Shown: positions 4,067-21,344, counted from the first letter of the stretch. The stretch: 64,000 nucleotides of DNA from Rhodopseudomonas palustris HaA2 (GCF_000013365.1 NC_007778.1:3534001-3598000); one strand, 5' to 3'. Numbers and translations: made by a program. Notes: generated from the letters alone by a model not told the origin.

Positions 4067-4086
4067 TGTTGACTATATGGTCAACA
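4067..4086. promoter_or_regulatory. Palindromic operator, site 1 (TetR-type)
   Basis: TGTTGAC and GTCAACA arms (7 bp, perfect) are separated by six bases. The site lies between the divergent CoxM gene (start 3983) and the amidohydrolase gene (start 4166). It is one of six related sites between 4067 and 21344. That it binds TetR is inferred. Confidence 0.75.
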
Positions 4087-4165
4087 CTTGAATACCTTGT
4101 GATGATCACACGCCAATGCAATCGATATCGTCCGGCCGCAACAGCGAAGACGCGAAGGTTTTCAG

Positions 4166-5119
4166 ATGCAGAACGAGACGCCCGTGATCGCGATCGAGGA
4201 ACATTATTGGGACCCGGAGATGGTCGCTCGTTTTCCCGCCGGGGAGAACGCTTCGCCTTTCTCGACGCTGCTGACAGAACTCGGCGACGTCCGGCTGCGC
4301 GCGATGGACGAGGCCGGGATCGACGTGCAGGTGCTGTCGCACGGCGCACCCGCCGCGCAGAAATTGCCGCCGGATGTCGCTCCCGAGCTGACGCGGCGCG
4401 TCAACGATCGGCTTGCCGAAGCCTGCGCGCGTTTTCCAAACCGGTTCGCCGCCTTTGCCGCCCTCCCGACGCCGGCGCCCGAAGCCGCGGCGCGCGAGTT
4501 GGAACGCTGCGTCCGCGACCTCGGCTTCAAGGGCGCGATGATTCACGGCCTGACCAACGGCCTATTCATCGACGACAAGCGATTCTGGCCGATATTCGAG
4601 GTCGCCGAAAAGCTCGACGTGCCGATTTATCTGCATCCGTCGGTCCCCCACGCGGACGTCACGCGATACTATTACGACGACTACGCGCGCGAATTTCCGA
4701 CCGTGATCCGGCCGGCCTGGGGCTTCACCGTCGAAACCGCGACCCAGGCGATCCGGCTGATCCTGAGCCGCGCGCTGGAAAGCTATCCGCGGCTGCAGAT
4801 CATCCTCGGCCATCTCGGCGAGACCCTGCCCTTCCTGCTGTGGCGGATCAACCAGGCCCTGGCGCGGCCGGGTCAGACGCCACTCGACTTCCGCAAGCAA
4901 TTTTGCGATCACTTCCACGTCACGACCAGCGGCTTCTTCTCCACGCCGGCGCTGATCTGCACGATGCTGGAGCTCGGTATCGATCGCATCATGTTCGCGG
5001 TCGACTACCCCTATGTGGTGAACCGCGACGGCACCGACTGGGTCCAGCAGTTGCAGATCTCACCGGACGACAAACGCAAGCTGGTCGGCGGCAACGCCCG
5101 CCGTCTGCTCAAGCTCTAG
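4166..5119 (+). CDS. ACMSD-family amidohydrolase / metal-dependent decarboxylase
   Basis: A 317-residue amidohydrolase-2 (TIM barrel) protein of the ACMSD / gamma-resorcylate decarboxylase / isoorotate decarboxylase superfamily. Likely metal and catalytic residues are visible: Glu11 and His13 in the AIEEHY motif, which in the resorcylate decarboxylase branch replaces the HxH of ACMSD, then His157 (YLHPS), His216 (GHLGE) and Asp280 (FAVDYPY). Such enzymes non-oxidatively decarboxylate aromatic or heteroaromatic acids, or hydrolyse related rings. An AAGG-like ribosome site lies just upstream of the ATG. It is followed 12 bases later by an alpha/beta hydrolase and is divergent from the CoxM operon, with operator site 1 between. 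The exact substrate cannot be read from sequence. Confidence 0.88.
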   Translation: MQNETPVIAIEEHYWDPEMVARFPAGENASPFSTLLTELGDVRLRAMDEAGIDVQVLSHGAPAAQKLPPDVAPELTRRVNDRLAEACARFPNRFAAFAALPTPAPEAAARELERCVRDLGFKGAMIHGLTNGLFIDDKRFWPIFEVAEKLDVPIYLHPSVPHADVTRYYYDDYAREFPTVIRPAWGFTVETATQAIRLILSRALESYPRLQIILGHLGETLPFLLWRINQALARPGQTPLDFRKQFCDHFHVTTSGFFSTPALICTMLELGIDRIMFAVDYPYVVNRDGTDWVQQLQISPDDKRKLVGGNARRLLKL

Positions 5120-5131
5120 CCGGAAACGACG

Positions 5132-6049
5132 ATGCAGGACGTAGCGCCTCCGGACATCCCGGCTGAACTCCGCGCGCTGATGGCGGAGATCGGCCCGAAA
5201 TGGGCGACCAACACCAAAGGCCACATCCAGCTGATGATCGACGAGTTCAGCGAGTTGCTGAAGCACTCGCCGAAGCAAGGCGTCGACGTCGAGCCCAACA
5301 TCACCTATGGCCCGCACGAGCGCCAGGCCTTCGACGTCTATCGGCCGCATTCACCATCCCAGACGCCGCGGCCGGGGCTGATCTTCGTTCACGGCGGCGC
5401 GTTCACCGAAGGACGACGCGATCGCAGCAGCGAAATCTACGCCAACGTCCTGTATTACTTCGCGCGGCACGGCATCGTCGGCATCAATGCCGGCTACCGC
5501 CTGGCGCCCGAGGCGCGCTATCCCGGGGCGACGCGCGACATCGCCAAAATCGTGGCCTGGATGCGCGCCAACGCAACGGATCTTGGAGTCGACCCGGAAC
5601 GGATTTTCCTGATGGGTCATTCGGCCGGCGGGGCACATGTCGGCAGCTACGCGTTCGACCGCCGGCACCAGGCCGATGGCGGTCACGGGCTTGCCGGCGT
5701 GCTGATCATCAGCGGCCGCGTACGCGCCGATAGCCACGCCCACAACCCCAACGCGCTCCGAGTCGCCGAATATTACGGGAGCGATGCCGCGGTCCACGAG
5801 GACGTCTCGCCGGTCAACCACGTCGACGCAACGAGCCCGCCGACCTTCATCGCCTGCGCGGAATTCGAAAACCCGCTGATCGACGTGTATTGCTTCGAGC
5901 TGGCCTATCGGCTCGCCGCGGCGAAGCGAAAGGCGCCGCCCTTCATGTGGCTCAAGGGCCACAACCACACCTCGATCATCGGCCAGTTCAACACCGCCGA
6001 AGACGCGCTCGGCCGCGCGTGCCTCGATTTCATCCGGTCTACGAGCTGA
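5132..6049 (+). CDS. Alpha/beta hydrolase (hormone-sensitive lipase-like, family IV)
   Basis: A 305-residue esterase-type hydrolase. It has the oxyanion-hole HGGAF motif (residues 87-91) and the nucleophile elbow GHSAGG with Ser164, both typical of the HSL/carboxylesterase family. A GYRLAPEARYPG motif following the HGG strand is also typical. Late Asp and His triad residues are probably in the VYCFELAYRL and GHNHTS regions. No signal peptide is seen, so it should be cytoplasmic. It forms a two-gene unit with the upstream amidohydrolase (12-base gap). It converges with the aldehyde dehydrogenase gene, and the two stops are 24 bases apart. Arylformamidase-like (kynurenine formamidase) activity is a possible alternative. 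Confidence 0.88.
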   Translation: MQDVAPPDIPAELRALMAEIGPKWATNTKGHIQLMIDEFSELLKHSPKQGVDVEPNITYGPHERQAFDVYRPHSPSQTPRPGLIFVHGGAFTEGRRDRSSEIYANVLYYFARHGIVGINAGYRLAPEARYPGATRDIAKIVAWMRANATDLGVDPERIFLMGHSAGGAHVGSYAFDRRHQADGGHGLAGVLIISGRVRADSHAHNPNALRVAEYYGSDAAVHEDVSPVNHVDATSPPTFIACAEFENPLIDVYCFELAYRLAAAKRKAPPFMWLKGHNHTSIIGQFNTAEDALGRACLDFIRSTS

Positions 6050-6072
6050 CGCGCCTGCTCCGCACACCGGGA

Positions 6073-7464
6073 CTATACCCCGCGCATTCCGGTGAACTTG
6101 AGCTGGGTGTACTCCTCCAGCGCATAAGGTAACCCTTCGCGGCCGACGCCCGAGCGGCCCATGCCACCGAACGGATAGTTGTCGAGCCGGAACCGGCTGG
6201 CCTCGTTGATCCACAGCGATCCGACACGCACCTCGTCCGCGACCCGCAACGCGGTCGACAGGCTCGCGGTGAAACACGAGCCTTGCAAGCCGAATTCGCA
6301 ATCATTGGCGATGCGGATGGCATCGTCGACATCGGCGGCGCGGAGCACCACGACGACAGGTCCGAACACCTCCTCGCGGATGAGCCGCGCCGCCGCCGGC
6401 GGCTCGACCACGATGGTCGGCGGGATCACGCAATCCCGGATTTCGCCGCAGCTGATCACGCGGGCGCCGAGGGCGCGCGCGTCTTCGATCATCGCCGCAA
6501 TCCGCTCGGCAGAGACTCGCGACACCACGGGACCGAGGTCGGTATCCGCCGCGGCCGGATCGCCGACCTTGAGACGCTTCGTTTCCTCGACGAAGAGAGC
6601 AAGGAACCGATCGAACACCGGCGCTTCAACAATGATCCTTTGCGTTGAAATGCATTGCTGGCCACTCGCTTCGAACGACGACGGCACGATGCGTTTCACC
6701 GCGTCCTCGATGTCTGCGTCCGCCGCAACGATGTTCGGCGAATTGCCGCCGAGTTCGCCGAGAAATCGCTTTGCGCCGGCAGCCCGCGCCAGTGCGTCGC
6801 CGGCCGCAGTGCCTCCGGTTAGGGTTACAAGATCGACGTCGCGGTGCCCAGCCAAGCCCAGCGCCTCTGCGCGATCGCCAGGAACCACCCACACCAGCCC
6901 CTCGGGAACGCCGCCCGTGACGAAGGCCCGTGCAATCATCTCTGCGATCCGCGTGCCCTCGAGAGACGGCTTGATCACGACGGCGTTGCCGGTGGCGAGC
7001 GCCGGCGCCAATTTCTGCACCAGCAGGTTGGACGGTGCATTGAACGGGGTGACCGCAGCGACGACACCATACGGCATCCGCCGCGCAAATCCGACAGAGC
7101 CGACACCCGCCGGCACCATGTCCAGAGGCAGCAAATGTCCGCCCAGCGCATGCAGATGCTGTGCGCAGGCCGCGATGAAAGCGACGCTGCGCCTGACCTC
7201 CATCTCGGCAGTTTTGCGCGGCTTGCCGATATGCGCGATCATCGCCTCGACGATCTCGCTCCGCGCCCGTTCCAGCGCGGCGGCGGCGCCATGGATCCAT
7301 TCCGCCCGAACGTGTCCCGGCGTCTTGAGATGCTGATAGAACGCGGCCTTCGCTTCGCGCGCGATCTCATCGACACGCTGCTCGCTGGTGCCCGGCGTCG
7401 TAAAGGCTTCCTGGGCCGTCCAGGGATTGTAAACGACGAAACGACCGTCCTTGTCAGCCTGCAT
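6073..7464 (-). CDS. NAD(P)-dependent aldehyde dehydrogenase
   Basis: A 463-residue ALDH-superfamily enzyme that oxidises an aldehyde to the acid in the cytoplasm. Catalytic Cys271 lies in SGQQCISTQR and the general-base Glu237 in LGELGGNSPN. The cofactor-binding TPFNAP and VIKPS motifs are at about residues 139-166. It is a single-gene unit divergent from the aspartate dehydrogenase-like gene, with operator site 2 in the 134-base gap. Within the predicted regulon it would oxidise an aldehyde released from the ring substrate. The specific substrate is unknown. Confidence 0.92.
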   Translation of the reverse strand: MQADKDGRFVVYNPWTAQEAFTTPGTSEQRVDEIAREAKAAFYQHLKTPGHVRAEWIHGAAAALERARSEIVEAMIAHIGKPRKTAEMEVRRSVAFIAACAQHLHALGGHLLPLDMVPAGVGSVGFARRMPYGVVAAVTPFNAPSNLLVQKLAPALATGNAVVIKPSLEGTRIAEMIARAFVTGGVPEGLVWVVPGDRAEALGLAGHRDVDLVTLTGGTAAGDALARAAGAKRFLGELGGNSPNIVAADADIEDAVKRIVPSSFEASGQQCISTQRIIVEAPVFDRFLALFVEETKRLKVGDPAAADTDLGPVVSRVSAERIAAMIEDARALGARVISCGEIRDCVIPPTIVVEPPAAARLIREEVFGPVVVVLRAADVDDAIRIANDCEFGLQGSCFTASLSTALRVADEVRVGSLWINEASRFRLDNYPFGGMGRSGVGREGLPYALEEYTQLKFTGMRGV

Positions 7465-7558
7465 AGGTCCCCATTGCTCAACGTGCGGTGATGAACGCCG
7501 ATGCCGTGCAGTCGCGAATACCGCCGCCCCAAGCTTCGGCCGGGGCGACTTGACATCA

Positions 7559-7578
7559 TGTTGACCATTCAGTCAACA
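7559..7578. promoter_or_regulatory. Palindromic operator, site 2 (TetR-type)
   Basis: TGTTGAC and GTCAACA arms with a six-base spacer, identical in design to site 1; an extra A/T pair extends the arms to 8 bp. It is placed between the divergent aldehyde dehydrogenase (start 7464) and aspartate dehydrogenase-like (start 7599) genes and could control both. Confidence 0.75.
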
Positions 7579-7598
7579 TTAGTCGTAGCACGAAAGTC

Positions 7599-8402
7599 GT
7601 GGTGCATTTACCCGGATCGAGGTCGCCATTGAAGATCGCCGTGATCGGCTACGGAGCCATCGGAAGGTTCTTGATCGAGCAGCTCGATGCCGTTCCGGAT
7701 TTCGAGATCGCAGCGGTCTATTCCGTGCCGGCGCCACCCGATCGCGCCGAGCGCGTGGTCGACGATCTCGACGCGCTGCTTGCGACCCGGCCCGACCTGG
7801 TGGTCGAATGCGCCGGCCATCGCGCCCTGTCGGAATGCGGCGAGGCCGTTCTTCGCAGCGGCGTCGATCTGTTGGTGGTCTCGGTCGGCGCCCTCGCCGA
7901 TCCCGCGCTCGAGCAGCAATTACGGACAGCCGCCCGGCACGGGGGCCGCCTGCTGATCGCCGCGGGCGCCTTGAGCGGCCTCGACGCACTCAGCACGGCG
8001 CGCGAGGCCGGCCTGGATTCGGTGTCCTATGTCGGCAAGAAGGCGCCAGCGGCTTGGACCAACACGCCCGCGGAAGACATGGTGGACCTGACATCGATCA
8101 CGTCGGCCGTGACATTCCTCGAATGCGACGCGCGTACAGCCGCGCTCCGCTTCCCACAGAACGCCAACGTGGTCGCGGCCATCGCACTGGCCGGGCTCGG
8201 CTTCGAGCGCACGCAGGTGAGCCTCGTCGTCGATCCGGCGTCGAACGGCAACAATCACTCCTTCGTAGCCCGCGGCGCATTCGGCGAGATCGCCATGACG
8301 ACGCGCTCGGCCACCCTGCCTGCCAATCCCAAGACATCCATGCTGGCGCCCTACAGTCTCGTGCAGACCATCAAGAAGCACGCCGGTTTGATCATCGTTT
8401 GA
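7599..8402 (+). CDS. Aspartate dehydrogenase-like protein (NadX family)
   Basis: A 267-residue NAD(P)-dependent dehydrogenase of the L-aspartate dehydrogenase family. It has an N-terminal Rossmann motif (IGYGAIG, about residues 16-22), the VVECAGH segment, and the C-terminal family signature NGNNHSFVARGAFGE followed by LPANPKTSMLAPYS. The known reaction interconverts L-aspartate and iminoaspartate/oxaloacetate plus ammonia. A GTG start at 7599 gives the displayed length; a TTG 30 bases downstream (ahead of KIAVIGYG) is also possible. It lies 20 bases after operator site 2. No nadA or nadC is nearby, so a catabolic rather than NAD-biosynthetic role is more likely. Confidence 0.85.
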   Translation: MVHLPGSRSPLKIAVIGYGAIGRFLIEQLDAVPDFEIAAVYSVPAPPDRAERVVDDLDALLATRPDLVVECAGHRALSECGEAVLRSGVDLLVVSVGALADPALEQQLRTAARHGGRLLIAAGALSGLDALSTAREAGLDSVSYVGKKAPAAWTNTPAEDMVDLTSITSAVTFLECDARTAALRFPQNANVVAAIALAGLGFERTQVSLVVDPASNGNNHSFVARGAFGEIAMTTRSATLPANPKTSMLAPYSLVQTIKKHAGLIIV

Positions 8403-8468: not shown

Positions 8469-8486
8469 GTTGACTAGTTAGTCAAC
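8469..8486. promoter_or_regulatory. Palindromic operator, site 3 (TetR-type)
   Basis: A perfect palindrome, GTTGACTA-GT-TAGTCAAC, with the same TTGAC-N6-GTCAA core as the other sites. It lies 57 bases upstream of the cupin gene start and 66 bases after the aspartate dehydrogenase-like stop, so the cupin probably has its own regulated promoter. Confidence 0.75.
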
Positions 8487-8543: not shown

Positions 8544-9071
8544 ATGGCCACGGCGAGACACGCACGCCCGAAGGAGCTCGAAGGCGTCTCGATCGACGAA
8601 ATCATCGAACGTTACGTCGCGCGCTACGCAGATCGCAGGGCCGACTGGGCAGCCTTCGAAGACGCCAAGATCGAAGGCTACAAGCGCGCCCAGCACCGCT
8701 TCATCGGCGCCGGCGGCTCCGGCAAGTACAACGACTCCACCGTGATCCCGGCCGGCAACTTCACGCTGTCGATCATGTTCGTGCCGCCCGGCCAGGGCAA
8801 CGCACCCCACACCCACGAGGCCGAAGAGGTGTTCTTCGTGCTGCAGGGCCATCTCGACGTGTTCGTCGAGGACGAGAGCGGCCGCCGCATCACTCGTCGC
8901 CTCGGACCGTGGGAGTGCATCTCTTGCCCCGCGGGCGTGATCCACGGCTATCAGAACGACAGCCTGGAGCCGGTGTACTTCCAGGTGATGATCGGCCGCG
9001 GCAAGCCGGAAACGATGGGCTACGCCGACGACGAGCTGTACAAGCGCCGCGACGCGCATCTCAAGGCCTGA
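8544..9071 (+). CDS. Cupin-domain protein
   Basis: A 175-residue protein with one cupin barrel. The first cupin motif supplies His89, His91 and Glu95 (HTHEAEEVFFVLQG), and the second includes His134 (PAGVIHGY), so a metal site (Fe or Mn) is intact. A strong GGAGG ribosome site precedes the ATG. The approximately 60 residues before the barrel are helical and charged. Its role is not known; small cupins in catabolic clusters act as dioxygenases, isomerases or metal-dependent ring-processing enzymes. A strong terminator follows and operator site 3 precedes it. Confidence 0.88.
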   Translation: MATARHARPKELEGVSIDEIIERYVARYADRRADWAAFEDAKIEGYKRAQHRFIGAGGSGKYNDSTVIPAGNFTLSIMFVPPGQGNAPHTHEAEEVFFVLQGHLDVFVEDESGRRITRRLGPWECISCPAGVIHGYQNDSLEPVYFQVMIGRGKPETMGYADDELYKRRDAHLKA

Positions 9072-9262: not shown

Positions 9263-10303
9263 TCACACGCTCTGCGGCGGGACGAACTCCCGGCCCGTGG
9301 GCACGAAATCGTTGGTGTAGAGCGCCGCCGGCTCGAGCGCTGTGGTGACTCCGGCATTCGCCTTCAGCACCGCCACGGTCGAGGCCCAATCCTCGGGCGG
9401 CATCCAGCCGAGCGGCTTGTTGGCCGACGTCGGGGTGACCCAGGTGCTCCACGACAGCTGCGCCTCGCGCAAGGTGATCGCCGGGTCGGTCGACTCGAGA
9501 TACTTCTTCACGACCTGCGTCAGTTCGTCGGGATGGGCGCGGCCGTAGAGGAACCCCTTCACGCTGGCCAGCACCATGCCGCGTATGACATTCGGCTCGG
9601 ACAGCATGTCGTCGTGCACGATCAGGCCGTTGCTCATGCAGACCACCCCGGCGTCGGAGTACCAGAAAGGCCGCACGTTCTTCTTGCCGCGGATCTCGAT
9701 CGACGGGATGTAGCCTTGGGCGAAGCCGGCGATCGCCGCGACCTGGCCGTTGATCAGCGCCGGGCCGGCGCCGGCGCCGTCGACATTGACGACGCGGACC
9801 GACGCGGGATCGACCCCCGAACTCTTGAGGAACGCCGGAAATTGCTGGAACTGCGCCGAGCCGGTGGTGATGCCGACGGTCTTGCCGACCAGATCCTTCG
9901 GCTCCCTGACATCCGAGCCCTCGAGCACGAGCACGGCGCATGGGTTCCGCCGATAGATCCCGGCGACCATCTTCAGCTTGGCGCCCTTCGACACCGTGTT
10001 GCCGACGACGTAGCCGTCGGCGAAGCCGAACTGCGCAGCCTTCGACGCGACGATCTGCGCGGTGTTGCCGGAGCCCTTGCCCTGGTTGATGGAGACGTCG
10101 AGGCCTTCATCGGCGAAGTAGCCCTTCTCCTTCGCGACCAGGAAGCCGGCGTTCGGTCCGCCGTAGATCCAGTCGGTCTGCAGAGAGACCGCACGCAGAG
10201 ACTTCAGCGATTGCGCCCGCACGATCGCCGGAAACGACACGACGGCCATGGTCGCGGCCCCGGTCTTCAGCCAATCGCGCCGTGTCATCTTCCCTCTCGG
10301 CAT
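9263..10303 (-). CDS. ABC transporter substrate-binding protein (SsuA/THI5-like), orphan copy
   Basis: About 346 residues, exported by the Tat route: the N-terminus has TRRDWLKTGAATMAVVSFPA followed by an AQS cleavage-like site. The body is NMT1/THI5/SsuA-like (TDWIYGGPNAGFLVAKEKGYF, GKGSGNTAQIVASK, then GKTVGITTGSAQFQ), the family that captures sulfonates, nitrate or pyrimidine-type precursors. I chose the ATG at 10303 because GGGTGGGAG lies ahead of it; an ATG 27 bases upstream is an alternative. It is clearly paralogous to the binding protein at 20244-21266, sharing the same motifs and the same FVPP C-terminus. No permease or ATPase is adjacent, so it may feed the single permease/ATPase pair at 18567-20229. 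Confidence 0.92.
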   Translation of the reverse strand: MPRGKMTRRDWLKTGAATMAVVSFPAIVRAQSLKSLRAVSLQTDWIYGGPNAGFLVAKEKGYFADEGLDVSINQGKGSGNTAQIVASKAAQFGFADGYVVGNTVSKGAKLKMVAGIYRRNPCAVLVLEGSDVREPKDLVGKTVGITTGSAQFQQFPAFLKSSGVDPASVRVVNVDGAGAGPALINGQVAAIAGFAQGYIPSIEIRGKKNVRPFWYSDAGVVCMSNGLIVHDDMLSEPNVIRGMVLASVKGFLYGRAHPDELTQVVKKYLESTDPAITLREAQLSWSTWVTPTSANKPLGWMPPEDWASTVAVLKANAGVTTALEPAALYTNDFVPTGREFVPPQSV

Positions 10304-10366
10304 TGTGCGCTCCCACCCGTGATTAGTCACCGATTATTGACGAGTGATACGCAAAGTCAAACTGAA

Positions 10367-10382
10367 TTGACTAACTGGTCTG
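10367..10382. promoter_or_regulatory. Palindromic operator, site 4 (imperfect)
   Basis: TTGAC-N6-GTCTG, an imperfect copy of the TTGAC-N6-GTCAA core, 64 bases upstream of the binding-protein start. An extra half-site GTCAA at 10356-10360 lies at the same 11-base spacing on the other side, giving three phased half-sites. Confidence 0.55.
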
Positions 10383-10542
10383 TCTAACTTGACGGCAGTG
10401 TTGGGCGGTTTGCGCAGCAAACTGCGTACCGGAACAGCACTCGGTACGAAGAATGAGGCCGCTCGATCAGTAGACGGGCGTCATCCTGCCGCAAGCAGGG
10501 CACCGGGCCCCGCAGAGCGGAAGTATCCGGCTAGCCGCCTCG

Positions 10543-12828
10543 CTAAGCAGGGCGCGCTGCGGCAGCTTGCACAAGCCGCCAGATCCGGTCCGGAGATAGC
10601 GGCAGCGCCTTCGGCTGCACGTCAAAATCGCGCAGCGCCGCCGCGACCGCATTCGCCAGAATCCCGCCGACCGGAATCGTCCCGCCTTCGCCGGCGCCCT
10701 TGGCACCAAGCGGATGGTTCGGCGACGGACACATCTCGATCGACGACGAGCGGATGTTGGGATAGTCGGTCGCGAGCGGAACCAGATAGTCGGCCAGCGA
10801 GCCCGACAGCATCTGCCCCTCGTCGTCGTACACGAAGTGCTCGAGCAGCGTGCCGCCGAGCCCCTGCACGATCGAGCCGATCGCCTGGCCGTGCAGCGTC
10901 AGCGGATTGATGATGCGGCCGGCATCCTCGATGGCGACGTAGTCGACGATCTCGATATGTCCGGTCTCGGCATCGACCGCGACATGCGCGACGTGGCTGC
11001 CATAGGTGTAGGTGTGCTTGGTGTTGTGAAACGTCGCCTCGAAGGCGATGCCCTTCGCCGCCAGTTCCTTCAGCCCGACCGACCCGCCGTGCTGCGCGGC
11101 GACGCGCCCGGCCTGATAGCTGACCTCCTGCTCGGCGCATTGCAGCAGGCCGGCGCCGGCCGTCAGCAGCTGTGCCTTGATCTCCGCTGCGGCGAGCAGC
11201 ACGGCGTTGCCGCCCATCACCGTGGAACGCGAGTGATAGGATCCCCAGCCTTCCTTCACATAAGTCGTCGAGCCGTGAAAGACGCGGATCGCCTTGAGCG
11301 GCAGGTCCATCGCATCGGCGGCGATCTGCATCAGGATGGTCTCGACGCCCTGCCCGACCGCCGAAGAGCCGACATAGAGCGAGATCGTGCCGTCGCTTTC
11401 CAGCACCATGCGCGCACTTTCGCGCGGACCGGCGGCGCCGCCCTCGACGAAACAGCCGACCGCGAGGCCGTGATAGCGGCCGTCGACGAGCTTCCCCTGC
11501 AGATGCTGCTTGTCGGCCCAGCCCGCTTTGGCGAGGCAGAGATCGAGCACCTTTTCATAGGCACCGCTGTCGAGTTCGGTGACGACCGGGTTCGGAGCAA
11601 TCGCCGGAAACGCCAGCGGCAGTTCCTCCGGCGTTAGCAGATTGCGGCGGCGGAATTCGACGCGATCGATGCCGAGGTCATCGGCGGTGAGATCGAACAT
11701 TCGCTCGCGGAAGAAATCCGACTCGAATCGCCCCGGACCGCGATAGGTGCCGGCCGGCGATTTGTTCGACGCGATCACCGCGACGTCGGCGCGATAGCGC
11801 GGCACGCGATAGGCGCCGGGCATGAACTGCCCGACATTGCGCGGCGCGATCGTTGTCGAGGTGCGGAAATACGCGCCGATGTTCATCTGCATCCGGGCGC
11901 GGATCGCGAGAATGCGGCCGTCGCGATTGCAGGCGATTTCGAGGTCGGCGGCGACGTCGCGCGAATGGGTCACCGCGAGCAAATGCTCCCGGCGGTCCTC
12001 GATCCATTTGACCGGCCTGCCGATTTTGCGCGCGGCGAACGGGACCAGGAAATCCTCCGGGAAGAATTCGCCGCGCACGCCGAAGCTGCCGCCGGCATTA
12101 CCCTCGATCATCACCACCTGCTCTTCGGGCAGATCGAGCATCCCGGCCAGAATCTTGCGGTTGGCGAACGGGACCTTGGTGGCGCCCCACGACGTCATCC
12201 GGCCTGCGGCGGCGTCCCATTCGGACACCACGCCACGCGTCTCCATCGTGATACCGGTATGGCGGTGCACGTACAGCCGCTCGCGGCGGGTGTAGGGCGC
12301 GGTCTCGAAGGTATCGTCGATCTCGCCGCGGCTGACCTCGTAGTCGAACACCCGGTTGGAGCCGTGTGCCTCGAACAGCAGCGCGTCGTGCGCGACCTCG
12401 TCCTCGAACCTCGTGACCGCCGGCAGGGGGTCGATATCCGCCTCGATCAATTCGAGCGCGTCCTCCGCCAGCGCCGGTGTGTCGGCGATCACGATCGCCA
12501 TCGGCTCGCCGACGAAGCGGACCTTGCCGTCGGCGATCACCGGCTGCCGGAACGGCTCCATCGCCTCGTTGGGAAACAGCCGCACCGGAATCCGCGGCAC
12601 CGCGCCGATATCCTCGGCGGTATAGACCGCATGCACGCCCGGCATCGCCCGCGCCGCGGTGACGTCGATGCGCCGGATCACGCCGTGCGCGACCGAGCTG
12701 CGCAGAATCGCGGCATGCAGCATGCCGTCGCGATGCACGTCGTCGACGAAGCTGCCGAGTCCGCGCAGCAGCTTTGGATCCTCGACACGCTCGATCGGCT
12801 GTCCAACCAGCGGCACGCGCTCGTTCAC
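10543..12828 (-). CDS. Molybdenum hydroxylase large subunit (CoxL/XdhB family), copy 2
   Basis: A 761-residue molybdopterin subunit, closely related along its whole length to the copy at 345-2648 (shared QPIERVEDPKLLRG-type N-terminus, SVGQG/AVGQG motif and SRSTVMGG motif). The catalytic Glu is near residue 714 in GAKGAGEGG, and there is no CO dehydrogenase AYxCSFR loop. The start overlaps the stop of the iron-sulfur subunit by four bases. It is the last gene of a six-gene operon starting at 17575, whose members all overlap their neighbours by four bases. As a hydroxylase, it probably acts on an N-heterocycle or aldehyde. Confidence 0.93.
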   Translation of the reverse strand: MNERVPLVGQPIERVEDPKLLRGLGSFVDDVHRDGMLHAAILRSSVAHGVIRRIDVTAARAMPGVHAVYTAEDIGAVPRIPVRLFPNEAMEPFRQPVIADGKVRFVGEPMAIVIADTPALAEDALELIEADIDPLPAVTRFEDEVAHDALLFEAHGSNRVFDYEVSRGEIDDTFETAPYTRRERLYVHRHTGITMETRGVVSEWDAAAGRMTSWGATKVPFANRKILAGMLDLPEEQVVMIEGNAGGSFGVRGEFFPEDFLVPFAARKIGRPVKWIEDRREHLLAVTHSRDVAADLEIACNRDGRILAIRARMQMNIGAYFRTSTTIAPRNVGQFMPGAYRVPRYRADVAVIASNKSPAGTYRGPGRFESDFFRERMFDLTADDLGIDRVEFRRRNLLTPEELPLAFPAIAPNPVVTELDSGAYEKVLDLCLAKAGWADKQHLQGKLVDGRYHGLAVGCFVEGGAAGPRESARMVLESDGTISLYVGSSAVGQGVETILMQIAADAMDLPLKAIRVFHGSTTYVKEGWGSYHSRSTVMGGNAVLLAAAEIKAQLLTAGAGLLQCAEQEVSYQAGRVAAQHGGSVGLKELAAKGIAFEATFHNTKHTYTYGSHVAHVAVDAETGHIEIVDYVAIEDAGRIINPLTLHGQAIGSIVQGLGGTLLEHFVYDDEGQMLSGSLADYLVPLATDYPNIRSSSIEMCPSPNHPLGAKGAGEGGTIPVGGILANAVAAALRDFDVQPKALPLSPDRIWRLVQAAAARPA

Positions 12829-14182: not shown

Positions 14183-15861
14183 GGCGTGGCTCCGGACTGC
14201 GACGGGATGTGCGGCAGCAGCAGATAGGACACGTGGCCGGGTCCCGTGAGGATCGTGGTGCGGCCGTCGAACTCGGTGCGCGGGCGATCGCGTTCGTGAT
14301 TGTGCAGGATGCGGCCGGAGACGCCGGGCGCCTCGTAGTCCCGCCCCTGCAGCGTCAGCGCCAACCGATAGCCCGGCGGGCAAACGATGCTGGTCGGCCA
14401 GATCTCGACGTCGAGCAGATACGGCTGGCCCGGCTCGAGCTTCTGGATCTCGTCGTGGCTGTGATACGGCCGCACCGGCGTTGACATCGCCGGATCGAGC
14501 TTGCGATGCGACGCGCGCAGCCAGCCGCGCGCCACCGGCTCGGTGTCGCTGGCGCCGGCGAACACCACTTCGCGGCCGTCCGGCCGAAACAGCCGCAGCG
14601 TCGCGAAGATGTCCGCGTCCGGCGTCGACGACGCGATCCACAGCCGCGCCGTCACCGGCCCCGTGAACTCAGTGGCCTGATCGAACGGCCGCGTGAGGAA
14701 GGTGACGCCGTCGCCCATCGCGACGAAGGTGCTCGATGCTGCCGCGGCCGGCGAATCGATCGACAAGCTCTGCGCCGCTGCGTCGAGATAGTGCAGCTGC
14801 CAGTCGGTGCGCGCCAGCGGCCACTCCGCCTCGTTTCGCGCAACCGCGCCGTCGGGGCTGCGGATCTCCAGCCGGATCGTCGGCTCGCCATCCCAACCGT
14901 TAGCCTCACCCTTGAGAAAATACGCGAAAAACCGCTTCTGGCGGTCGATATAGGCCGGCAGATAGAAGCTCTCGAAATGCGTGCCAATATGCATATCGAG
15001 CCATTTCAACCCCGAGCCGGCGCGACAGAAGCCTTCGACGTTGCCGCGCAAATGCAGGCCGCAGCCCCCCCAATTGCCGGCGGAGAACAGCGGCACCTGA
15101 ACGCGGCCGAGATCCGGCGAACGCTGCCGGAACCAGGCATCGTCGAGCGGATGCTGCAACAGATCGCCGGCATGATCGGCGCGGTTGGCGCGCAGCAGAT
15201 AGTCGCTCAGCGCCGCGCCGGTGGTGGTCTTGCCGGTGTCGCGATCGCGATGGTGCGTCGCCGCGTTGCCGTGCTGATTGGGCAGCACCTGGCGTGGCCA
15301 CCACGCGGTCGGGAACGAATTGCTGAAGATGCCGCCGTGGTGACTCCAGTCGCGATACAGGTCGCTACCGCCCTCCCACGGGCAGATCGCCGCGAGATGG
15401 GGCGGCTGCAGCGCGGCAACCTGCCACTGCTTGATCGACAGATACGAAATACCGATCAGGCCGACCTTGCCGCACGACCACGGCTGCGTCGCGGCCCATT
15501 CGATCGCGTCGTAATAGTCCTGCGTCTCGCGCGGCGAGAACGGGTCGAGATAGCCGGGCGACTGTCCGCTGCCGCGGCCATCGACCGCGATCACCACATA
15601 GCCGTCCGGCACCCAGCGCTCGGGGTCGATCATTTCCCAGCGCAAATAGCGTCCGCTCGATCCGTCGTCGATGATCGCGGGATTGAGCGTCTGCAACTTC
15701 TTCCACGGCAGTTCGTAGCCGTCGGCGAAGTGGATGTCCTTGCCGTAGATGCCGAGCGACATCAGCACCGGATACGGACCGTCCTGGGCGGGACGATAGA
15801 TATTGGCACGGAGCCAATGTCCGTCGCTGACCGGAATGACGACGTTCTTCTCAACGATCAT
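14179..15861 (-). CDS. CocE/NonD family hydrolase (X-Pro dipeptidyl-peptidase-like)
   Basis: A 560-residue alpha/beta hydrolase of the CocE/NonD family, which cleave esters or amides (cocaine esterase, glutaryl-acylase-like). The nucleophile elbow is GISY with Ser139, preceded by the family motif DGRGSGQSPG (94-103). The C-terminal third is the beta-rich PepX C domain (FTGPVTARLWIASS and PGYRLALTLQGRDYE). The start MIVEKNVVIPVSDG matches the family N-terminus; the frame extends further upstream without homology. It overlaps both neighbours by four bases. A role in hydrolysing a ring-opened or esterified intermediate is inferred. Confidence 0.9.
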   Translation of the reverse strand: MIVEKNVVIPVSDGHWLRANIYRPAQDGPYPVLMSLGIYGKDIHFADGYELPWKKLQTLNPAIIDDGSSGRYLRWEMIDPERWVPDGYVVIAVDGRGSGQSPGYLDPFSPRETQDYYDAIEWAATQPWSCGKVGLIGISYLSIKQWQVAALQPPHLAAICPWEGGSDLYRDWSHHGGIFSNSFPTAWWPRQVLPNQHGNAATHHRDRDTGKTTTGAALSDYLLRANRADHAGDLLQHPLDDAWFRQRSPDLGRVQVPLFSAGNWGGCGLHLRGNVEGFCRAGSGLKWLDMHIGTHFESFYLPAYIDRQKRFFAYFLKGEANGWDGEPTIRLEIRSPDGAVARNEAEWPLARTDWQLHYLDAAAQSLSIDSPAAAASSTFVAMGDGVTFLTRPFDQATEFTGPVTARLWIASSTPDADIFATLRLFRPDGREVVFAGASDTEPVARGWLRASHRKLDPAMSTPVRPYHSHDEIQKLEPGQPYLLDVEIWPTSIVCPPGYRLALTLQGRDYEAPGVSGRILHNHERDRPRTEFDGRTTILTGPGHVSYLLLPHIPSQSGATP

Positions 15862-16904
15862 GCGCAACCTTGCCGTTTTGGTTCGCCTGCCGGCGAACCC
15901 GCCGCGACTTGCGCGGCTCCCCACATCGGAGCCAGCGCACGATTGATGTCGCGCGCGATCGTCCATCCCTGATAGATGAAGGCCGAATACAGATCGACGC
16001 AGCTTGCGCCGGCGCGGCGCATCGCCAACACATCGGCGGCGGAGCTGATGCCGCCATTGCCTTTGATCGCCAGACGGCCACGCGCAAAGCCGGCGGCCCG
16101 CTCGACATTCATCAGCGCCGTGTCGAAGATCTCGCGTCCGTGCAGAGTGCCGGCGCCAGTGCCGAGCCCCGGCTCGGCGATCCGCCGTCCACCTCCGACC
16201 TTGATGCCGCCGACACCGGCCGCAATACACACCTCGATGAGTTCCGCGAACCGATCATGCAGCCGCGTCGTATCGTTGGGCACGCGCACAACGATCGATC
16301 CGGCGCGGCCGTCGAGCCGCGCGAGCACGCCGCGCAGCATGCCGATCTCGTCGAACACTTCGCCGTCGGCCAGCACGTTGGGACACATCAGGCTGAGCTC
16401 AACCAGATCGACGTGCGGCGCCACTTCGATCACGCCGGCCGCGATCGTGTCCGCCGAGAAGCCGCCGATATTGGCGATCACCGGCACGGCACGAGGGCCG
16501 AGACGGCGCAATCGCTCGGTCGCGTACGCCCTGCCCTTGCTCGGCACGCCCATCGAGTCGGCGATCGACTCGGTGCCGCGGCGTCGCACCAGCCGCGGGA
16601 ATGGATTGCCGACCCGCGGCTCCGGCATGATGGAGCCGACGCAGACGAATCCGAAGCCGAGGCAGGACAGCGCCGCGATCAGTTCGGCATCCTTGTCGAA
16701 TCCCGCGGCGAGACCGACCGGATTGGGCAGCTCGACGCCGGCAAAACGCGTGACCAGACGCGGGTCGTCGACGCGCAGCGTGGCAGCCGCGGCGAGCAGT
16801 CGCCACGGCACGGCGCGGCGCAGCGCCGCATGCGCCATCGCGTGGCTGCGATCCGGCGACATCCGGAACAGGCCGGGCGCGAGAAGGTCACGATACAGAT
16901 TCAT
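15858..16904 (-). CDS. Dihydroorotate dehydrogenase-like flavoprotein, diverged active site
   Basis: 348 residues with a class 2 DHODH-like scaffold: N-terminal helices (YRDLLAPGLFRMSPDRSHAM), the AGFDKDAE FMN motif at 67-74, and a C-terminal phosphate-binding stretch KGNGGISSAADVL. Substrate residues differ from PyrD. The class 2 NxxGFNN segment is ADSMGVPSKG, the catalytic SSPNT is LMCPNV with Cys174 (class 1-like), and the ATNTT orotate contact is IKVGGGRR. It therefore probably reduces or oxidises another substrate. It overlaps the isochorismatase stop and the CocE start by four bases each, so it is part of the catabolic operon and not pyrimidine biosynthesis. Confidence 0.85.
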   Translation of the reverse strand: MNLYRDLLAPGLFRMSPDRSHAMAHAALRRAVPWRLLAAAATLRVDDPRLVTRFAGVELPNPVGLAAGFDKDAELIAALSCLGFGFVCVGSIMPEPRVGNPFPRLVRRRGTESIADSMGVPSKGRAYATERLRRLGPRAVPVIANIGGFSADTIAAGVIEVAPHVDLVELSLMCPNVLADGEVFDEIGMLRGVLARLDGRAGSIVVRVPNDTTRLHDRFAELIEVCIAAGVGGIKVGGGRRIAEPGLGTGAGTLHGREIFDTALMNVERAAGFARGRLAIKGNGGISSAADVLAMRRAGASCVDLYSAFIYQGWTIARDINRALAPMWGAAQVAAGSPAGEPKRQGCA

Positions 16905-17575
16905 AAGGCCGAATTCGCCACGGCAGCGGTCGCCCCGACGCCTTGCCAGGTGGCGATCACGTCGTCGGCATCGACCACCGCTCCGTAGTCGCGATGGAAC
17001 CGCTTCAGCGCACCGCGATGATCCTCGTCGCTGGCGGCGCCGCAGCAATCGCCGACCAGCGTCACGTAGTAGTCGCGGAAATACGCGTCGCGCCCGGCGG
17101 ATTCGACACACGTGTCGGTCGCGATGCCCGTGAGCAGCAGGCTCCGGATGCCGCGATCGCGCAACAGCTCGGGCAATTGCGGCCCGACCATCGCGCTGTA
17201 GCGATGCTTGATCACGACCGGCTCGCCCGGCTCCGGTGCGACGCGGTAGAACTCGGCGCCCCATGTGCCGCTGCGGCAGCGCGGCAACTCGCTGCCGATC
17301 CGCGCGTTGCGTTCGCGCATCGCATCCGACAGATGCTCGGGATCGTAGATCGCCTGGACGAAGATCACCAGAACGCCGGCCCGGCGCGCGGCGTAGATCA
17401 GCCGCAACAGATTGGGGACCCGCTCCCGCTGCACGACGCCGAGGTCGGCGCCGATCCGGTCGAAGAAACCGCCGGGCGCGGCGAAATGGTTCTGCACGTC
17501 GATCACCAGCAGCGCCGCATGCCGCGGATCGGTCTTGTCGGCGAGATTGCGAAGAAGCGCTGTGGACGACGGCAA
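16901..17575 (-). CDS. Isochorismatase-family cysteine hydrolase (RutB-like)
   Basis: A 224-residue cysteine hydrolase with the full triad: Asp26 (VIDVQNHF), Lys123 (VVIKHRYSA) and Cys156 (GIATDTCVES). The GIATDTCVESAGRDAYF signature and the GG-F segment after the Asp resemble ureidoacrylate and carbamoyl-type amidohydrolases, so the likely reaction is C-N bond hydrolysis releasing ammonia or carbamate. It is the first gene of the six-gene operon running to 10543. Operator site 5 lies 76 bases upstream. True isochorismate cleavage is unlikely in this setting. Confidence 0.88.
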   Translation of the reverse strand: MPSSTALLRNLADKTDPRHAALLVIDVQNHFAAPGGFFDRIGADLGVVQRERVPNLLRLIYAARRAGVLVIFVQAIYDPEHLSDAMRERNARIGSELPRCRSGTWGAEFYRVAPEPGEPVVIKHRYSAMVGPQLPELLRDRGIRSLLLTGIATDTCVESAGRDAYFRDYYVTLVGDCCGAASDEDHRGALKRFHRDYGAVVDADDVIATWQGVGATAAVANSAL

Positions 17576-17650
17576 GCAGGGCTCCGGAATGCGAGGGCAT
17601 CGACCGGCACGACCGCCGGTCCACTCACCCGCCGCGAAACATTCAAGATA

Positions 17651-17666
17651 CTGACCAGTTAGTCAA
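17651..17666. promoter_or_regulatory. Palindromic operator, site 5 (TetR-type)
   Basis: CTGAC-N6-GTCAA, matching the shared core with one mismatch. It is placed upstream of the isochorismatase-to-CoxL operon (first start 17575) and just beyond the 3' end of the TetR gene at 17695. Confidence 0.7.
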
Positions 17667-17694: not shown

Positions 17695-18441
17695 TTACTT
17701 CCGACCCGCGGTGTTCGGCGCGCCGTAGCGGAGATAGCTGAGAATTAGGTCCTCGATATGCGCGGTGCGCACCTTCATGTCTTCTTCGGTCGACAATTTG
17801 CGATCCAGCAGATAGGCGAGCGTGTAGCGATTGGAGAGGAAGTGGTAGGCCAGCGCCGAGATCGAGATGTAGAGTTCGACCGGATCGACGTTGCGGCGGA
17901 AGTCGCCGGAGCGCTCGCCCTGCTTCAGCAACTCGCCGATATTCGCCATCAGCCCCGAATAGCCGGCCTTGGTCAGCTTCGATTTGCGCAGGTGACGCCC
18001 CTTGTGGAAGTTCTCGGAATTCAGAAGACCGATGAACTCGGGTGAACCGTGCCAGTATTTGAAGGTCGACTGCACCAGCTTGCGGACGCCGTCGATCGGC
18101 GACGCGACGTCCAGCGGCCACGCCGTCTGATAGGCATGCATGCCCTCATAGGCAGCCTCGAGCACCGCGATGAACAGCCCTTCTTTGCTGCCGAAATAAT
18201 GATAGATGAGATTCTTGCTGACCTGCGCGATGCGCATGATGTCGTCGACCCGCGCGCCGTCATAGCCCTTCGCCGAGAATTCCTTGGTGGCGACGTCGAG
18301 AATGCGCTGCCGGGTCGCGATCTGGCCATGACCGGCGCCGTTGACCGGCTTCACGCGCGCGCGAGAGGCCTTGGCCGGCGCGGCAGATACCGCGGATTTA
18401 CGGACCTTGGTCGTCCGAGCGGAGGTCGAGGCATTGGCCAT
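17695..18441 (-). CDS. TetR family transcriptional regulator
   Basis: A 248-residue TetR protein. About 40 lysine/alanine-rich, low-complexity residues precede the HTH domain (RQRILDVATKEFSAKGYDGA, then VDDIMRIAQVSKNLIYHYFGSKEGLF). The C-terminal domain (residues about 95-240) is the helical ligand/dimer domain. Its recognition helix nearly matches that of the partial TetR at 1-269, which makes overlapping operator preference likely. It lies 125 bases after the permease gene on the same strand, so it may be the last gene of the transporter operon under operator site 6. I infer repression relieved by the substrate or a CoA ester. Confidence 0.93.
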   Translation of the reverse strand: MANASTSARTTKVRKSAVSAAPAKASRARVKPVNGAGHGQIATRQRILDVATKEFSAKGYDGARVDDIMRIAQVSKNLIYHYFGSKEGLFIAVLEAAYEGMHAYQTAWPLDVASPIDGVRKLVQSTFKYWHGSPEFIGLLNSENFHKGRHLRKSKLTKAGYSGLMANIGELLKQGERSGDFRRNVDPVELYISISALAYHFLSNRYTLAYLLDRKLSTEEDMKVRTAHIEDLILSYLRYGAPNTAGRK

Positions 18442-18566: not shown

Positions 18567-19421
18567 TCACACGGTCGGCGGCGAGATCTTCTCCTGATGC
18601 GGCATGCACAGGCGCTCGACGACTTCGACGATCCAGAAGAAGAACACCCCGAGCACCGTCAGCGCCACCAGTCCGGCGAACAACAGGGGCGTGTTCATGC
18701 TGCCGTTGGCGACCATCAGTTGATAGCCGAGGCCGCCGTCGCCGCCGACGAATTCACCGACCACTGCGCCGACCACCGCCAGCGTGATCGAGATCTTCAA
18801 CCCGGCGAAGATCGACGGCAGCGCGTTCGGCAGCCGGATCAGCCGGAAGGTGTCGAACGACGACAGCCCCATCGACTGCGCCAGATAGATCTTCTCGCGC
18901 TCGATCGCGGCCAGGCCCATCACGGTGTTGATCACGATCGGGAAGAACGCGATCAGGAACGCGATCAGCACCTTCGGCACTAGGCCAAAGCCGAACCAGA
19001 TCACGAACAGCGGCGCCACCGCGACCTTCGGCATCGCCTGCGACGAGATCAGGAGCGGATAGATCGACTTGGAGAACACCGGCCAGCGAAAGATCGCGAA
19101 GGCCAGCGGAATGCCGACGATGATGCTGACCGCGTAGCCGGCCAAAATCTCGACCGAGGTGATCCAGCTTTCGCGCAACAGCAGATCCCAGTTCGCGATC
19201 GTGGCCTGCAGCACGACGCTCGGCGGCGGAAACAGATAGACCGGGACGCCGAACACCCGCGTCGCGACCTCCCAGAACACCAGCAGCGAAACCCCGGTCA
19301 GGACCGGGTAGATCAACTCGGCGCGGCGGTCACGCTTGCGCCTGGCCCGCGTCTGTTCCTGAACGCGCTGCTCGATCTGCTCGATGGAGAGCGTGCGGCC
19401 CCCAGTCGCCATGTCGACCAT
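18567..19421 (-). CDS. ABC transporter permease (SsuC/TauC-like)
   Basis: 284 residues with about six membrane segments and the BPD permease EAA-type loop (AAIEREKIYLAQSMGLSSFDTFRLIRLPNALP). It belongs to the nitrate/sulfonate/taurine/pyrimidine-precursor importer family. Start candidates are MVDMATGG at 19421 and an internal ATG nine bases on; the first leaves only four bases after the ATPase stop. It forms an importer with the ATPase at 19426 and the binding protein at 20244, and perhaps also with the orphan binding protein at 9263. Confidence 0.94.
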   Translation of the reverse strand: MVDMATGGRTLSIEQIEQRVQEQTRARRKRDRRAELIYPVLTGVSLLVFWEVATRVFGVPVYLFPPPSVVLQATIANWDLLLRESWITSVEILAGYAVSIIVGIPLAFAIFRWPVFSKSIYPLLISSQAMPKVAVAPLFVIWFGFGLVPKVLIAFLIAFFPIVINTVMGLAAIEREKIYLAQSMGLSSFDTFRLIRLPNALPSIFAGLKISITLAVVGAVVGEFVGGDGGLGYQLMVANGSMNTPLLFAGLVALTVLGVFFFWIVEVVERLCMPHQEKISPPTV

Positions 19422-19425
19422 GCCC

Positions 19426-20229
19426 CTACTCCTTGATGACGCCGCGCGCGAGAAACACCTTGAGAATCTCGTGGCTGTAGCGCGCGAATTCGGCGGATTC
19501 CCGCATCGCGAGGGTTCGCGGCCGCGGCAGGTCGATATCGATGATGCGGTCGATCTTTCCCGGGCGCGGCGTCATCACCACGACGCGATCCGACAGAAAC
19601 ACCGCTTCGGCGATGCTGTGGGTGATGAACAGCACCGCCGTCGAGCGCTCGCTGCAGATCCGCTGCAGGTCGAGCACAAGTTGATCGCGGGTCAGCGAGT
19701 CGAGCGCGCCGAACGGCTCGTCCATCAACAGATGCGGCGGATCGTGGATCAGCGCGCGGCAGATCGAAACGCGCTGCTTCATGCCCCCCGACAGCGAGCC
19801 CGGATATTTGTTCTCGAAGCCGCCGAGGCCGACGGCGGCGAGCAGCTCCCGCGCGCGCTTCTCCGCGACCTTCATGTCCATCTTGCGCGCGACCGCCTGC
19901 AACATCACGTTCTGCAGCGCGGTCCGCCATTCCAGCAGCACGTGGTTCTGAAACACGATGCCGAGGTCGGTGCGCGGCCCATCGACCAGCTTGTCGTCGA
20001 CCAGCACCCGCCCCTCCGAACGCGACGCGAGACCGGCGGCGATCATCAGCAAGGTGCTTTTGCCGCAGCCGCTCGGCCCCACGATCGAGACGAACTCGCC
20101 GCGACGTTGCTGCAGCGAGACCCGATCGAGCGCCCGTACCGGGCCGTCGTCGCTTGCATAGACTTTGCTGAGGTTGTCGACCTCGAGATAGGGAGTGGTG
20201 TGCGGTGGCGGTGCGACAGCGATGTTCAC
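19426..20229 (-). CDS. ABC transporter ATP-binding protein (SsuB/TauB-like)
   Basis: 267 residues from a GTG start (MNIAVAPPPH). Walker A is GPSGCGKST (51-59), the signature is LSGGMKQR, and Walker B is LLMDEPFGALD, followed by the switch ITHSIAEA. It powers import by the permease downstream. The GTG lies 14 bases after the binding-protein stop. The open frame extends upstream opposite the binding-protein gene, without homology. Confidence 0.94.
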   Translation of the reverse strand: MNIAVAPPPHTTPYLEVDNLSKVYASDDGPVRALDRVSLQQRRGEFVSIVGPSGCGKSTLLMIAAGLASRSEGRVLVDDKLVDGPRTDLGIVFQNHVLLEWRTALQNVMLQAVARKMDMKVAEKRARELLAAVGLGGFENKYPGSLSGGMKQRVSICRALIHDPPHLLMDEPFGALDSLTRDQLVLDLQRICSERSTAVLFITHSIAEAVFLSDRVVVMTPRPGKIDRIIDIDLPRPRTLAMRESAEFARYSHEILKVFLARGVIKE

Positions 20230-20243
20230 GAAACCCGTCTCCG

Positions 20244-21266
20244 TCAGGCGTTCTGGGGGGGCACGAATTCGGGCTCCGTCGGCACGAACTCGTTGGTGTA
20301 GAGCTGCGACGGATCGAGATCGATGGTCACCCCGCCATAGGCCTTGAGCGTCTCCACCGTCGCCTTCCAATCCTCCGGCGCAATCCATCCCAGCGGCTTG
20401 TCTTTCGTCGTCGGCGTCACCCAGGTCCGCCAGGACAGTTCGGCTTCCCGCTTGGTGATCGCCGGATCGCTGGCTTCCTGATACTTCTTGATGATCTGCG
20501 CCGTCTCGTCGGGATTCTGACGGCCATACAGAAAGCCCTTCAAGGTCGCCCGGACGAAGGCGGCGACCAGCGGCTTGTCGGACAGCGTGTCCCGATGGAC
20601 GATAATGCCGTTACTCACCGCGTTGACGCCGTGATCGGCGTACCAGAACGTTCGCGCCTTCTTGTTGCCGCGGATCTCGATGCTCGGAACCCAGCCTTGG
20701 GCGAAGCCGGCGATTGCGTTGACCTTTCCCGAGATCAGCGCCGGCACTGCGCCCGCAGCATCGACATTGATGACCTTGATCTGTGACAGCTGCAGCCCCG
20801 CGCCGTTGACGAAGGCCGGCCATTGCTGAAATTGTGCGGAGCCGGTCGGAATGCCGATGGTCTTGCCGATCAGATCTTTCGGCTGTTGGATCGAGGATTC
20901 GTCGAGCACGATCACGGCCGTCGGCGTGCGACGGAACACCGCGCCGACCATCGTCAGGCGCATGCCCTTGGAGACGCTATTACCGACGACAAATCCGTCC
21001 GCGAAGCCGAACATCGACGCCTTGTTCGCCACGATCTGCGCGGTTCCGCCCGAGCCCTTGCCTTGACTCAGCGCGACGTCGAGACCCGCCTCGGCGTAGA
21101 AGCCCTTTTCTTTCGCGACTGCGAAACCGCAATTCGGCCCCTGATGCAACCAGTCGGTCAGACACGTTACCGGGCGCAGCGTCTGTGCGCGAAGAATGCC
21201 GGGCGCGGCCATCGTCGCACCTGCAGCAAGCGTCAAAAAGCCGCGGCGCGTAGGATCCATCGGCAT
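20244..21266 (-). CDS. ABC transporter substrate-binding protein (SsuA/THI5-like)
   Basis: About 340 residues, Tat-exported (DPTRRGFLTLAAGATMAAPG, then AQT). The body motifs TDWLHQGPNCGFAVAKEKGFY, GKGSGGTAQIVANK and GKTIGIPTGSAQFQQWPAF and the C-terminal EFVPPQNA mirror the orphan binding protein at 9263. I chose the ATG at 21266 because GGGAGG lies at good spacing; an ATG six bases upstream is directly against that site. It is the first gene of the transporter operon and is divergent from the SDR gene, with operator site 6 between. The ligand is probably the regulon's substrate. Confidence 0.93.
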   Translation of the reverse strand: MPMDPTRRGFLTLAAGATMAAPGILRAQTLRPVTCLTDWLHQGPNCGFAVAKEKGFYAEAGLDVALSQGKGSGGTAQIVANKASMFGFADGFVVGNSVSKGMRLTMVGAVFRRTPTAVIVLDESSIQQPKDLIGKTIGIPTGSAQFQQWPAFVNGAGLQLSQIKVINVDAAGAVPALISGKVNAIAGFAQGWVPSIEIRGNKKARTFWYADHGVNAVSNGIIVHRDTLSDKPLVAAFVRATLKGFLYGRQNPDETAQIIKKYQEASDPAITKREAELSWRTWVTPTTKDKPLGWIAPEDWKATVETLKAYGGVTIDLDPSQLYTNEFVPTEPEFVPPQNA

Positions 21267-21328
21267 CAACATCCCTCCCTCGACAAAACATTTGCAAAAT
21301 GTCACTCCATCGCCAATTAATGTCAATA

Positions 21329-21344
21329 TTAACTAACTAGTCAG
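21329..21344. promoter_or_regulatory. Palindromic operator, site 6 (imperfect)
   Basis: TTAAC-N6-GTCAG, matching the shared core with one change in each arm. It lies between the divergent binding-protein gene (start 21266) and SDR gene (start about 21430). Confidence 0.55.

Follow-up and report, generated by a model that had tools for sequence, protein, structure and literature searches.

Two predicted operator classes accompany two TetR paralogues in a catabolic gene cluster of Rhodopseudomonas palustris HaA2

A stretch of 64,000 nucleotides from Rhodopseudomonas palustris HaA2 (GCF_000013365.1 NC_007778.1:3534001-3598000), hereafter the window, carries a catabolic gene cluster with genes for two TetR-type regulators, TetR1 and TetR2. 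Positions are counted from the first letter of the window, and negative positions lie to its left. A first-pass annotation had proposed that one palindromic operator, TTGAC-N6-GTCAA, stands in front of every transcription unit of this cluster and defines a single self-regulated regulon. Here, we found two classes of dyads that co-segregate with different regulators. We consider it probable that TetR1 and TetR2, which are paralogous and RutR-like, act as repressors running two interleaved, self-regulated regulons with one operator class each. From the earlier proposal we thus retain that the cluster as a whole has its own self-regulated TetR operator system; the single regulon is given up, since the classes segregate with different regulators.

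Two classes of predicted operator

All six sites of the first-pass annotation are present in the window (4069, 7561, 8470, 10367, 17651 and 21329) with the numbers of mismatches to TTGAC-N6-GTCAA that it gave (0, 0, 0, 2, 1 and 2), the first three having been placed one to two bases off. As it had also claimed, they lie before or between the operons of 345-22233, all of them intergenic, and a matrix scan of the remaining 22.4-64 kb of the window gave no site above 9 bits. The matches do cluster here, as a genome scan was expected to tell: the exact core occurs five times in the 5,331,656 bases of the genome, and three of the five are the sites at 4069, 7561 and 8470, which fall inside 4.4 kb. 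The class-A 20-mer TGTTGACYANNYRGTCAACA is found, with up to two mismatches, at four places genome-wide, all four in the cluster, and the refined class-A and class-B patterns described below are nearly confined to it. The six sites are far beyond chance. The loose core with two mismatches is itself frequent in the window (33 matches versus 14 expected) and was dropped as a diagnostic; therefore only the refined patterns are diagnostic, and mismatch counts alone prove little. The exact bare core TTGACYANNTRGTCAA was likewise rejected as a marker of this system, being present in 17 of 150 relatives mostly away from the cluster. A few of these copies adjoin RutR-like genes, so that other regulators use the bare core too. 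A literature search on the operator strings found nothing useful.

The six sites are not copies of one palindrome. The three perfect sites share the pattern TGTTGACYA-NN-YRGTCAACA (class A), and the three "mismatched" ones are exact copies of another, TRACTAACTRGTCWGT (class B), with its centre displaced by 2 bp. Because the centres are 2 bp apart, class-B sites resemble class A with one-sided mismatches. The string TTGACTAACT is common to both classes. The last three sites are thus a second class and not decayed forms of the first three, as the single-operator proposal would have it.

Since the window begins inside the TetR1 gene, the cluster was followed leftward. It continues for 12.5 kb beyond the window and comprises about 32 genes over 35 kb (-12.5 to 22.2 kb), more than the block of about 19 genes over 22 kb starting at 345 that had been annotated; TetR1 itself spans -438..311. 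The added part contains a flavin adenine dinucleotide (FAD) oxidoreductase, an ATP-binding cassette (ABC) importer with a third coxMSL set, coxG, another ABC importer and the rest of TetR1. Three further sites lie there, at -12553, -10688 and -627, two of which are class A. The site at -12553 (G000:C1:3521447) is a variant class-A dyad, TGTTGAA-N6-TTCAACA, before the FAD oxidoreductase gene, and is also seen before the orthologue at three loci of other genomes (L161, L151 and L153). The one at -10688 (G000:C1:3523312), TTGACTAACTAGACAGTCAA, precedes the ABC-c/coxMSL3 operon and can also be read as TTGAC-N10-GTCAA.

We scored all nine sites with class-A and class-B matrices that were seeded from exact cores and trained only on loci outside the genus. 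The scores (bits, A/B) were 35.3/1.6 at 4069, 32.5/-0.1 at 7561, 32.1/20.3 at 8470, 4.6/16.8 at 10367, 21.0/20.4 at 17651 and 11.0/25.1 at 21329 in the window, and 18.4/1.6 at -627, 19.8/-6.1 at -12553 and 8.1/22.4 at -10688 to its left. No single model scored all sites best: 4069, 7561, 8470, -627 and -12553 fall to class A, 10367 and 21329 to class B, and 17651 is a tie. The split is the same in three strains. The cluster was found in just two of 120 relatives, Rhodopseudomonas infernalis HC1 (about 95% DNA identity) and R. palustris 2.1.18 (about 85%); in both, all nine sites have counterparts with the same pattern of A and B bits. In the alignments with 2.1.18, the dyads stand out against diverged flanks, and spacers change within kept arms (TTGACTATATGGTCAA versus TTGACTACCCGGTCAA).

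One could ask if the TTGAC arms are merely the -35 elements of divergent promoters, or the dyads terminators, given that TTGAC resembles the -35 hexamer and that terminator-like matches include the dyad at 8486-8469. This is very improbable. At 8470 and 10367, the flanking genes point the same way and one promoter would be enough, yet both arms are kept. Moreover, the palindromy reaches beyond the hexamer (TGTTGAC..GTCAACA) and the dyads co-segregate with TetR genes, and promoter and terminator matches are no commoner in the region than in shuffled sequences. We rejected the hairpin at 8486-8469 as a terminator, as it is the operator dyad itself.

Other candidate matches were set aside as well. 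The class-B match at -3365 is inside the coding sequence of an NMT1 gene, the match at -26461 is weak and without a tie to the cluster, and a class-B-like match at G000:4211476 belongs to a distinct palindrome, which adjoins a TetR/efflux gene set. That palindrome, ATGACTGACCAGTCAGTCAT (G000:C1:4211472-4211491; L175:3473), is perfect and immediately precedes a TetR gene that is accompanied by HlyD-like and ABC genes; near-copies of its core turn up in several relatives, with or without TetR1 or TetR2.

Regulators and operators across genomes

TetR1 and TetR2 are 40% identical, and both contain the TetR_N and TetR_C_29 domains (56 and 124.1 bits in TetR1, 58.4 and 114 bits in TetR2; curated cut-offs 24 and 26.2). 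As first described, each gene is the last of an operon behind a palindromic site, TetR1 after coxM1-S1-L1 behind 4069 and TetR2 after NMT_a-ATPase-permease behind 21329. The recognition helices, KVSKNMLYYYFK and QVSKNLIYHYFG, had been called near-identical. They share seven of 12 residues, including the VSKN start, and are better described as similar; the residues that differ follow operator class in relatives.

This was examined at 76 loci with TetR1- or TetR2-like genes, taken from 84,980 species genomes. Outside the genus, TTGAC-N6-GTCAA was observed 30 times versus 0.51 expected, almost always at TetR1-type loci, and TetR2-like regulators carry CTAAC-N2-GTTAG instead. Loci with KNM-YYYF helices have the TTGAC-N6 core in 14 of 16 cases and CTAAC-N2 in none of the 16; those with KN-YHYF helices have CTAAC-N2 in 15 of 52 and TTGAC-N6 in one. 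That lone locus (L094) is a contig of a Tardiphaga genome, G151, which has TetR1, and the contig also holds coxMSL1. In a third branch, with NK[RGQ] helices, 14 of 21 loci have GTAAC-N6-GTTAC. Judged from these sequences, helix type and operator core go together.

The third core had already appeared in a first scan of distant homologues with 1.5-kb flanks, where no TTGAC but a GTAAC palindrome was found, which led to the branch-specific view of operators. In loci L039-L064, 17 GTAAC-N6-GTTAC palindromes lie beside TetR_C_29 genes with [AV]NKRM-YHYF helices and make up a third operator class of the branch. The most enriched palindrome in TetR2-like loci, ATCAT-N7-ATGAT, was rejected as an operator, as it is conserved coding sequence (IIVDMICGAWGGRPD).

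Orthologues of the two regulators and both motifs were then sought in whole genomes. Eight of these (G153-G160) have a TetR1 orthologue (57-77%) and none of TetR2. No exact class-B site was found in these eight, the few one-mismatch matches being TGACTGACTRGTCAGT or TGACTAACTAGTTAGT, and the TetR1 loci examined from them (L138, L144, L147, L151, L153, L161, L128 and L135) all have exact class-A cores. The strict 18-mer finds several class-A sites at the TetR1 contig in each of G153, G154, G155, G159 and G160; at that contig in G156-G158, the class-A cores are flanked differently. The reverse case is G150, which has TetR2 (76%) and no TetR1. It contains exactly three class-B sites, all exact, before ABC-a, before the operon of isochorismatase, dihydroorotate-dehydrogenase-like protein (DHOD), CocE and coxMSL2, and before the gene of the NMT1/THI5-like protein NMT_d; no class-A site is found in that cluster. 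Its only class-A match, a perfect GTTGACTGATCAGTCAAC, is on another contig (G150:C6:76347-76364) and may be the target of some unrelated regulator. In G151, where both regulators are present, both classes occur and each stands before the genes that match it: NMT/ABC-a and isochorismatase-DHOD have class B, and the coxM1/cupin and TetR1/ABC-b gaps have class A. In these genome comparisons, class A follows TetR1 and class B follows TetR2.

The string at 10367 is identical before NMT_d in G150, that at 17651 is identical before isochorismatase in G150 and G151, and TAACTAACTAGTCAGT of 21329 is also found upstream of TetR2-like genes in other species (L099, L119 and L156). In two Bradyrhizobium loci (L144 and L147), the genes of cupin, aspartate dehydrogenase (AspDH), aldehyde dehydrogenase (ALDH), BD-FAE, amidohydrolase, coxMSL1 and ABC-b travel with TetR1. 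The gene sets therefore form two separable modules.

These results bear on the proposal that both TetR proteins bind one degenerate TTGAC-N6-GTCAA operator of a single regulon, with the last three sites as weaker copies. It would be consistent with TTGACTAACT in both classes, with the fit of 17651 and 8470 to both models and with the shared VSKN start of the helices. However, the "mismatches" are the same at every class-B site, are conserved in relatives and are exact in the TetR2-only genome, and the eight TetR1-only genomes are without exact class B. We therefore regard this proposal as unlikely.

A two-regulon model and its alternatives

We argue that TetR1 would bind class A at 4069, 7561, 8470 and -627 and the variant dyad at -12553. 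It would thereby control coxMSL1-TetR1, the decarboxylase/hydrolase pair, ALDH/AspDH, cupin, ABC-b and the FAD oxidoreductase. TetR2 would bind class B at 10367, 17651 and 21329 and control NMT_d, the isochorismatase-DHOD-CocE-coxMSL2 operon and ABC-a-TetR2, and probably the short-chain dehydrogenase (SDR) gene. Since each tetR gene sits behind its own operator class, each protein would repress itself and could be released by a substrate or a pathway intermediate. Repression rather than activation is the predicted mode, and cross-binding at 17651 and 8470 is conceivable.

Several observations weigh against this model. Among the KN-YHYF loci, 37 of 52 are without an exact CTAAC-N2 site, and a class-B site lies near one KNM-YYYF regulator (L157). 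The site at -10688 scores as class B yet is kept in genomes without TetR2 (L161, L151 and L153), and was therefore given to neither regulator. Class B as a pattern comes from this genome and was afterwards tested in others, and related genomes are non-independent samples. Finally, 17651 fits both models and 8470 is moderately class B, so the two regulons may overlap.

Such an overlap could also mean a mixed circuit in which the two regulators act on shared sites, in competition or cooperation, and TetR2 activates at some class-B sites. A sigma-70-like promoter match, TTGACT-N16-AATAAT (10360-10333, minus strand), is directly downstream of the class-B site at 10367, which places that site upstream of the -35 element rather than over the promoter. 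The cupin gene, common to both modules elsewhere, lies behind the class-A site that scores highest for class B, and the double fit of 17651 and 8470 points the same way. On the other hand, each regulator occurs alone with its own class in other genomes, so neither needs the other, and TetR proteins usually repress. We give a mixed circuit only a small chance.

Returning to two regulons, we tentatively suggest, as a minority possibility, that the duplicated repressors diverged at a few helix residues to read dyads that share TTGACTAACT with centres 2 bp apart, giving insulated regulons together with shared sites at which both proteins would act (17651, and 8470 in front of the common cupin gene). 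If true, this would provide, with the GTAAC branch, a readable helix-to-operator code for the TetR_C_29 branch. What had looked like a degenerate motif is resolved into two distinct predicted operators, each with a predicted regulator, and nearly every operon of a large catabolic cluster gains one. Three TetR_C_29 branches are tied to three operator cores (TTGAC, CTAAC and GTAAC), which helps in predicting TetR targets from helix sequence, and the cluster offers two candidate biosensor modules once inducers are known.

Gene content and comparison with known systems

The cluster (Table 1) encodes functions for the uptake and breakdown of a small, probably ring-shaped compound. Its gene families suggest import by NMT1/THI5-type ABC importers and hydroxylation by molybdenum hydroxylases, and further a step by a gamma-resorcylate-decarboxylase-like amidohydrolase, amide hydrolysis by a RutB-like isochorismatase and aldehyde oxidation. 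Our guess is an N-heterocycle or a hydroxylated aromatic; neither families nor solved structures settled the substrate. There are three separate coxMSL-type sets in the one cluster (345-14188; -7822..-4087). Sets 1 and 2 have about 68% DNA identity to each other's region in a relative, which suggests that parts of the cluster may have been duplicated.

Table 1. Predicted operators and genes of the cluster within the window
Feature	Position	Strand	Remarks
Class-A operator (predicted)	4069..4084		20-bp dyad TGTTGACTATATGGTCAACA at 4067-4086; between coxM1-S1-L1-TetR1 (-) and amidohydrolase-hydrolase (+); exact core
Class-A operator (predicted)	7561..7576		TGTTGACCATTCAGTCAACA; between ALDH (-) and AspDH-like gene (+); identical in R. 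palustris 2.1.18
Class-A operator (predicted)	8470..8485		AGTTGACTAGTTAGTCAACA; before cupin gene (+), same-direction genes on both sides; moderate class-B fit
Class-B operator (predicted)	10367..10383		TGACTAACTGGTCTGT at 10368-10383; upstream of NMT_d (-); exact class-B pattern
Class-B operator (predicted)	17650..17666		TGACTAACTGGTCAGT at 17650-17665, - strand; upstream of isochorismatase-DHOD-CocE-coxMSL2; exact class B; equal class-A fit
Class-B operator (predicted)	21329..21345		TAACTAACTAGTCAGT at 21330-21345; between NMT_a-ATPase-permease-TetR2 (-) and SDR (+); exact class B
TetR1 gene, 5' part	1..311 (whole gene -438..311)	-	last behind coxM1-S1-L1; TetR_N + TetR_C_29; helix KVSKNMLYYYFK
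coxL1, coxS1, coxM1 (molybdenum hydroxylase set 1)	345..3986	-	Pfam + NCBIfam; class-A unit
Amidohydrolase, gamma-resorcylate-decarboxylase type, then alpha/beta hydrolase	4166..6049	+	class-A unit
Aldehyde dehydrogenase	6073..7464	-	class-A unit
Aspartate-dehydrogenase-like protein	7599..8402	+	class-A unit
Cupin	8544..9071	+	found in both modules in other species
NMT1/THI5-like binding protein NMT_d	9263..10330	-	class-B unit
coxL2, coxS2, coxM2, CocE/NonD hydrolase, DHOD, RutB-like isochorismatase	10543..17575	-	class-B unit
TetR2 gene	17695..18441	-	last behind NMT_a-ATPase-permease; TetR_N + TetR_C_29; helix QVSKNLIYHYFG
Permease, ATPase, NMT1-like binding protein of ABC importer a	18567..21272	-	class-B unit with TetR2
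Short-chain dehydrogenase (SDR)	21424..22233	+	divergent from ABC-a across site 21329

Among the closest known systems is RutR of the E. coli rut operon (pyrimidine utilisation). RutR is reported to bind a palindrome of roughly 16 bp (PMC10891134). The class-A dyad is a 16-bp box of the RutR type. In E. coli MG1655, TGGACTAAACGGTCAA lies between rutA and rutR, and the features of this type of box (a 16-bp dyad, TTGAC arms and inner YA-NN-TR) are found at 4069, 7561 and 8470, with a one-base deviation in the inner part of 7561. Class B, centred 2 bp away, lacks them. The RutR helix VSKTNLLYYF is similar to those of TetR1 and TetR2. However, TetR1 and TetR2 score 60.1 and 48.5 bits against the RutR model TIGR03613, below its equivalog cut-off of 368, and are thus no RutR equivalogs; they carry TetR_C_29 and lie in a different gene cluster, in which no rutA-G set was seen. 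The GTAAC-N6-GTTAC regulators of relatives belong to the same C-terminal domain branch, and their operators have the inner CYA-NN-TRG in common with class A, but GTAAC replaces TTGAC in the outer half-site and their helices are of [AV]NKRM-YHYF type.

Two TetR repressors on one catabolic gene set are a known kind of arrangement. KstR and KstR2 divide the steroid catabolism genes of actinobacteria into two regulons, and the likeness is that two TetR paralogues split one catabolic gene set. Unlike in that system, the operators here look alike and overlap in sequence, and the predicted regulons alternate along one 35-kb cluster. It is this likeness of the operators and this alternation that are less usual.

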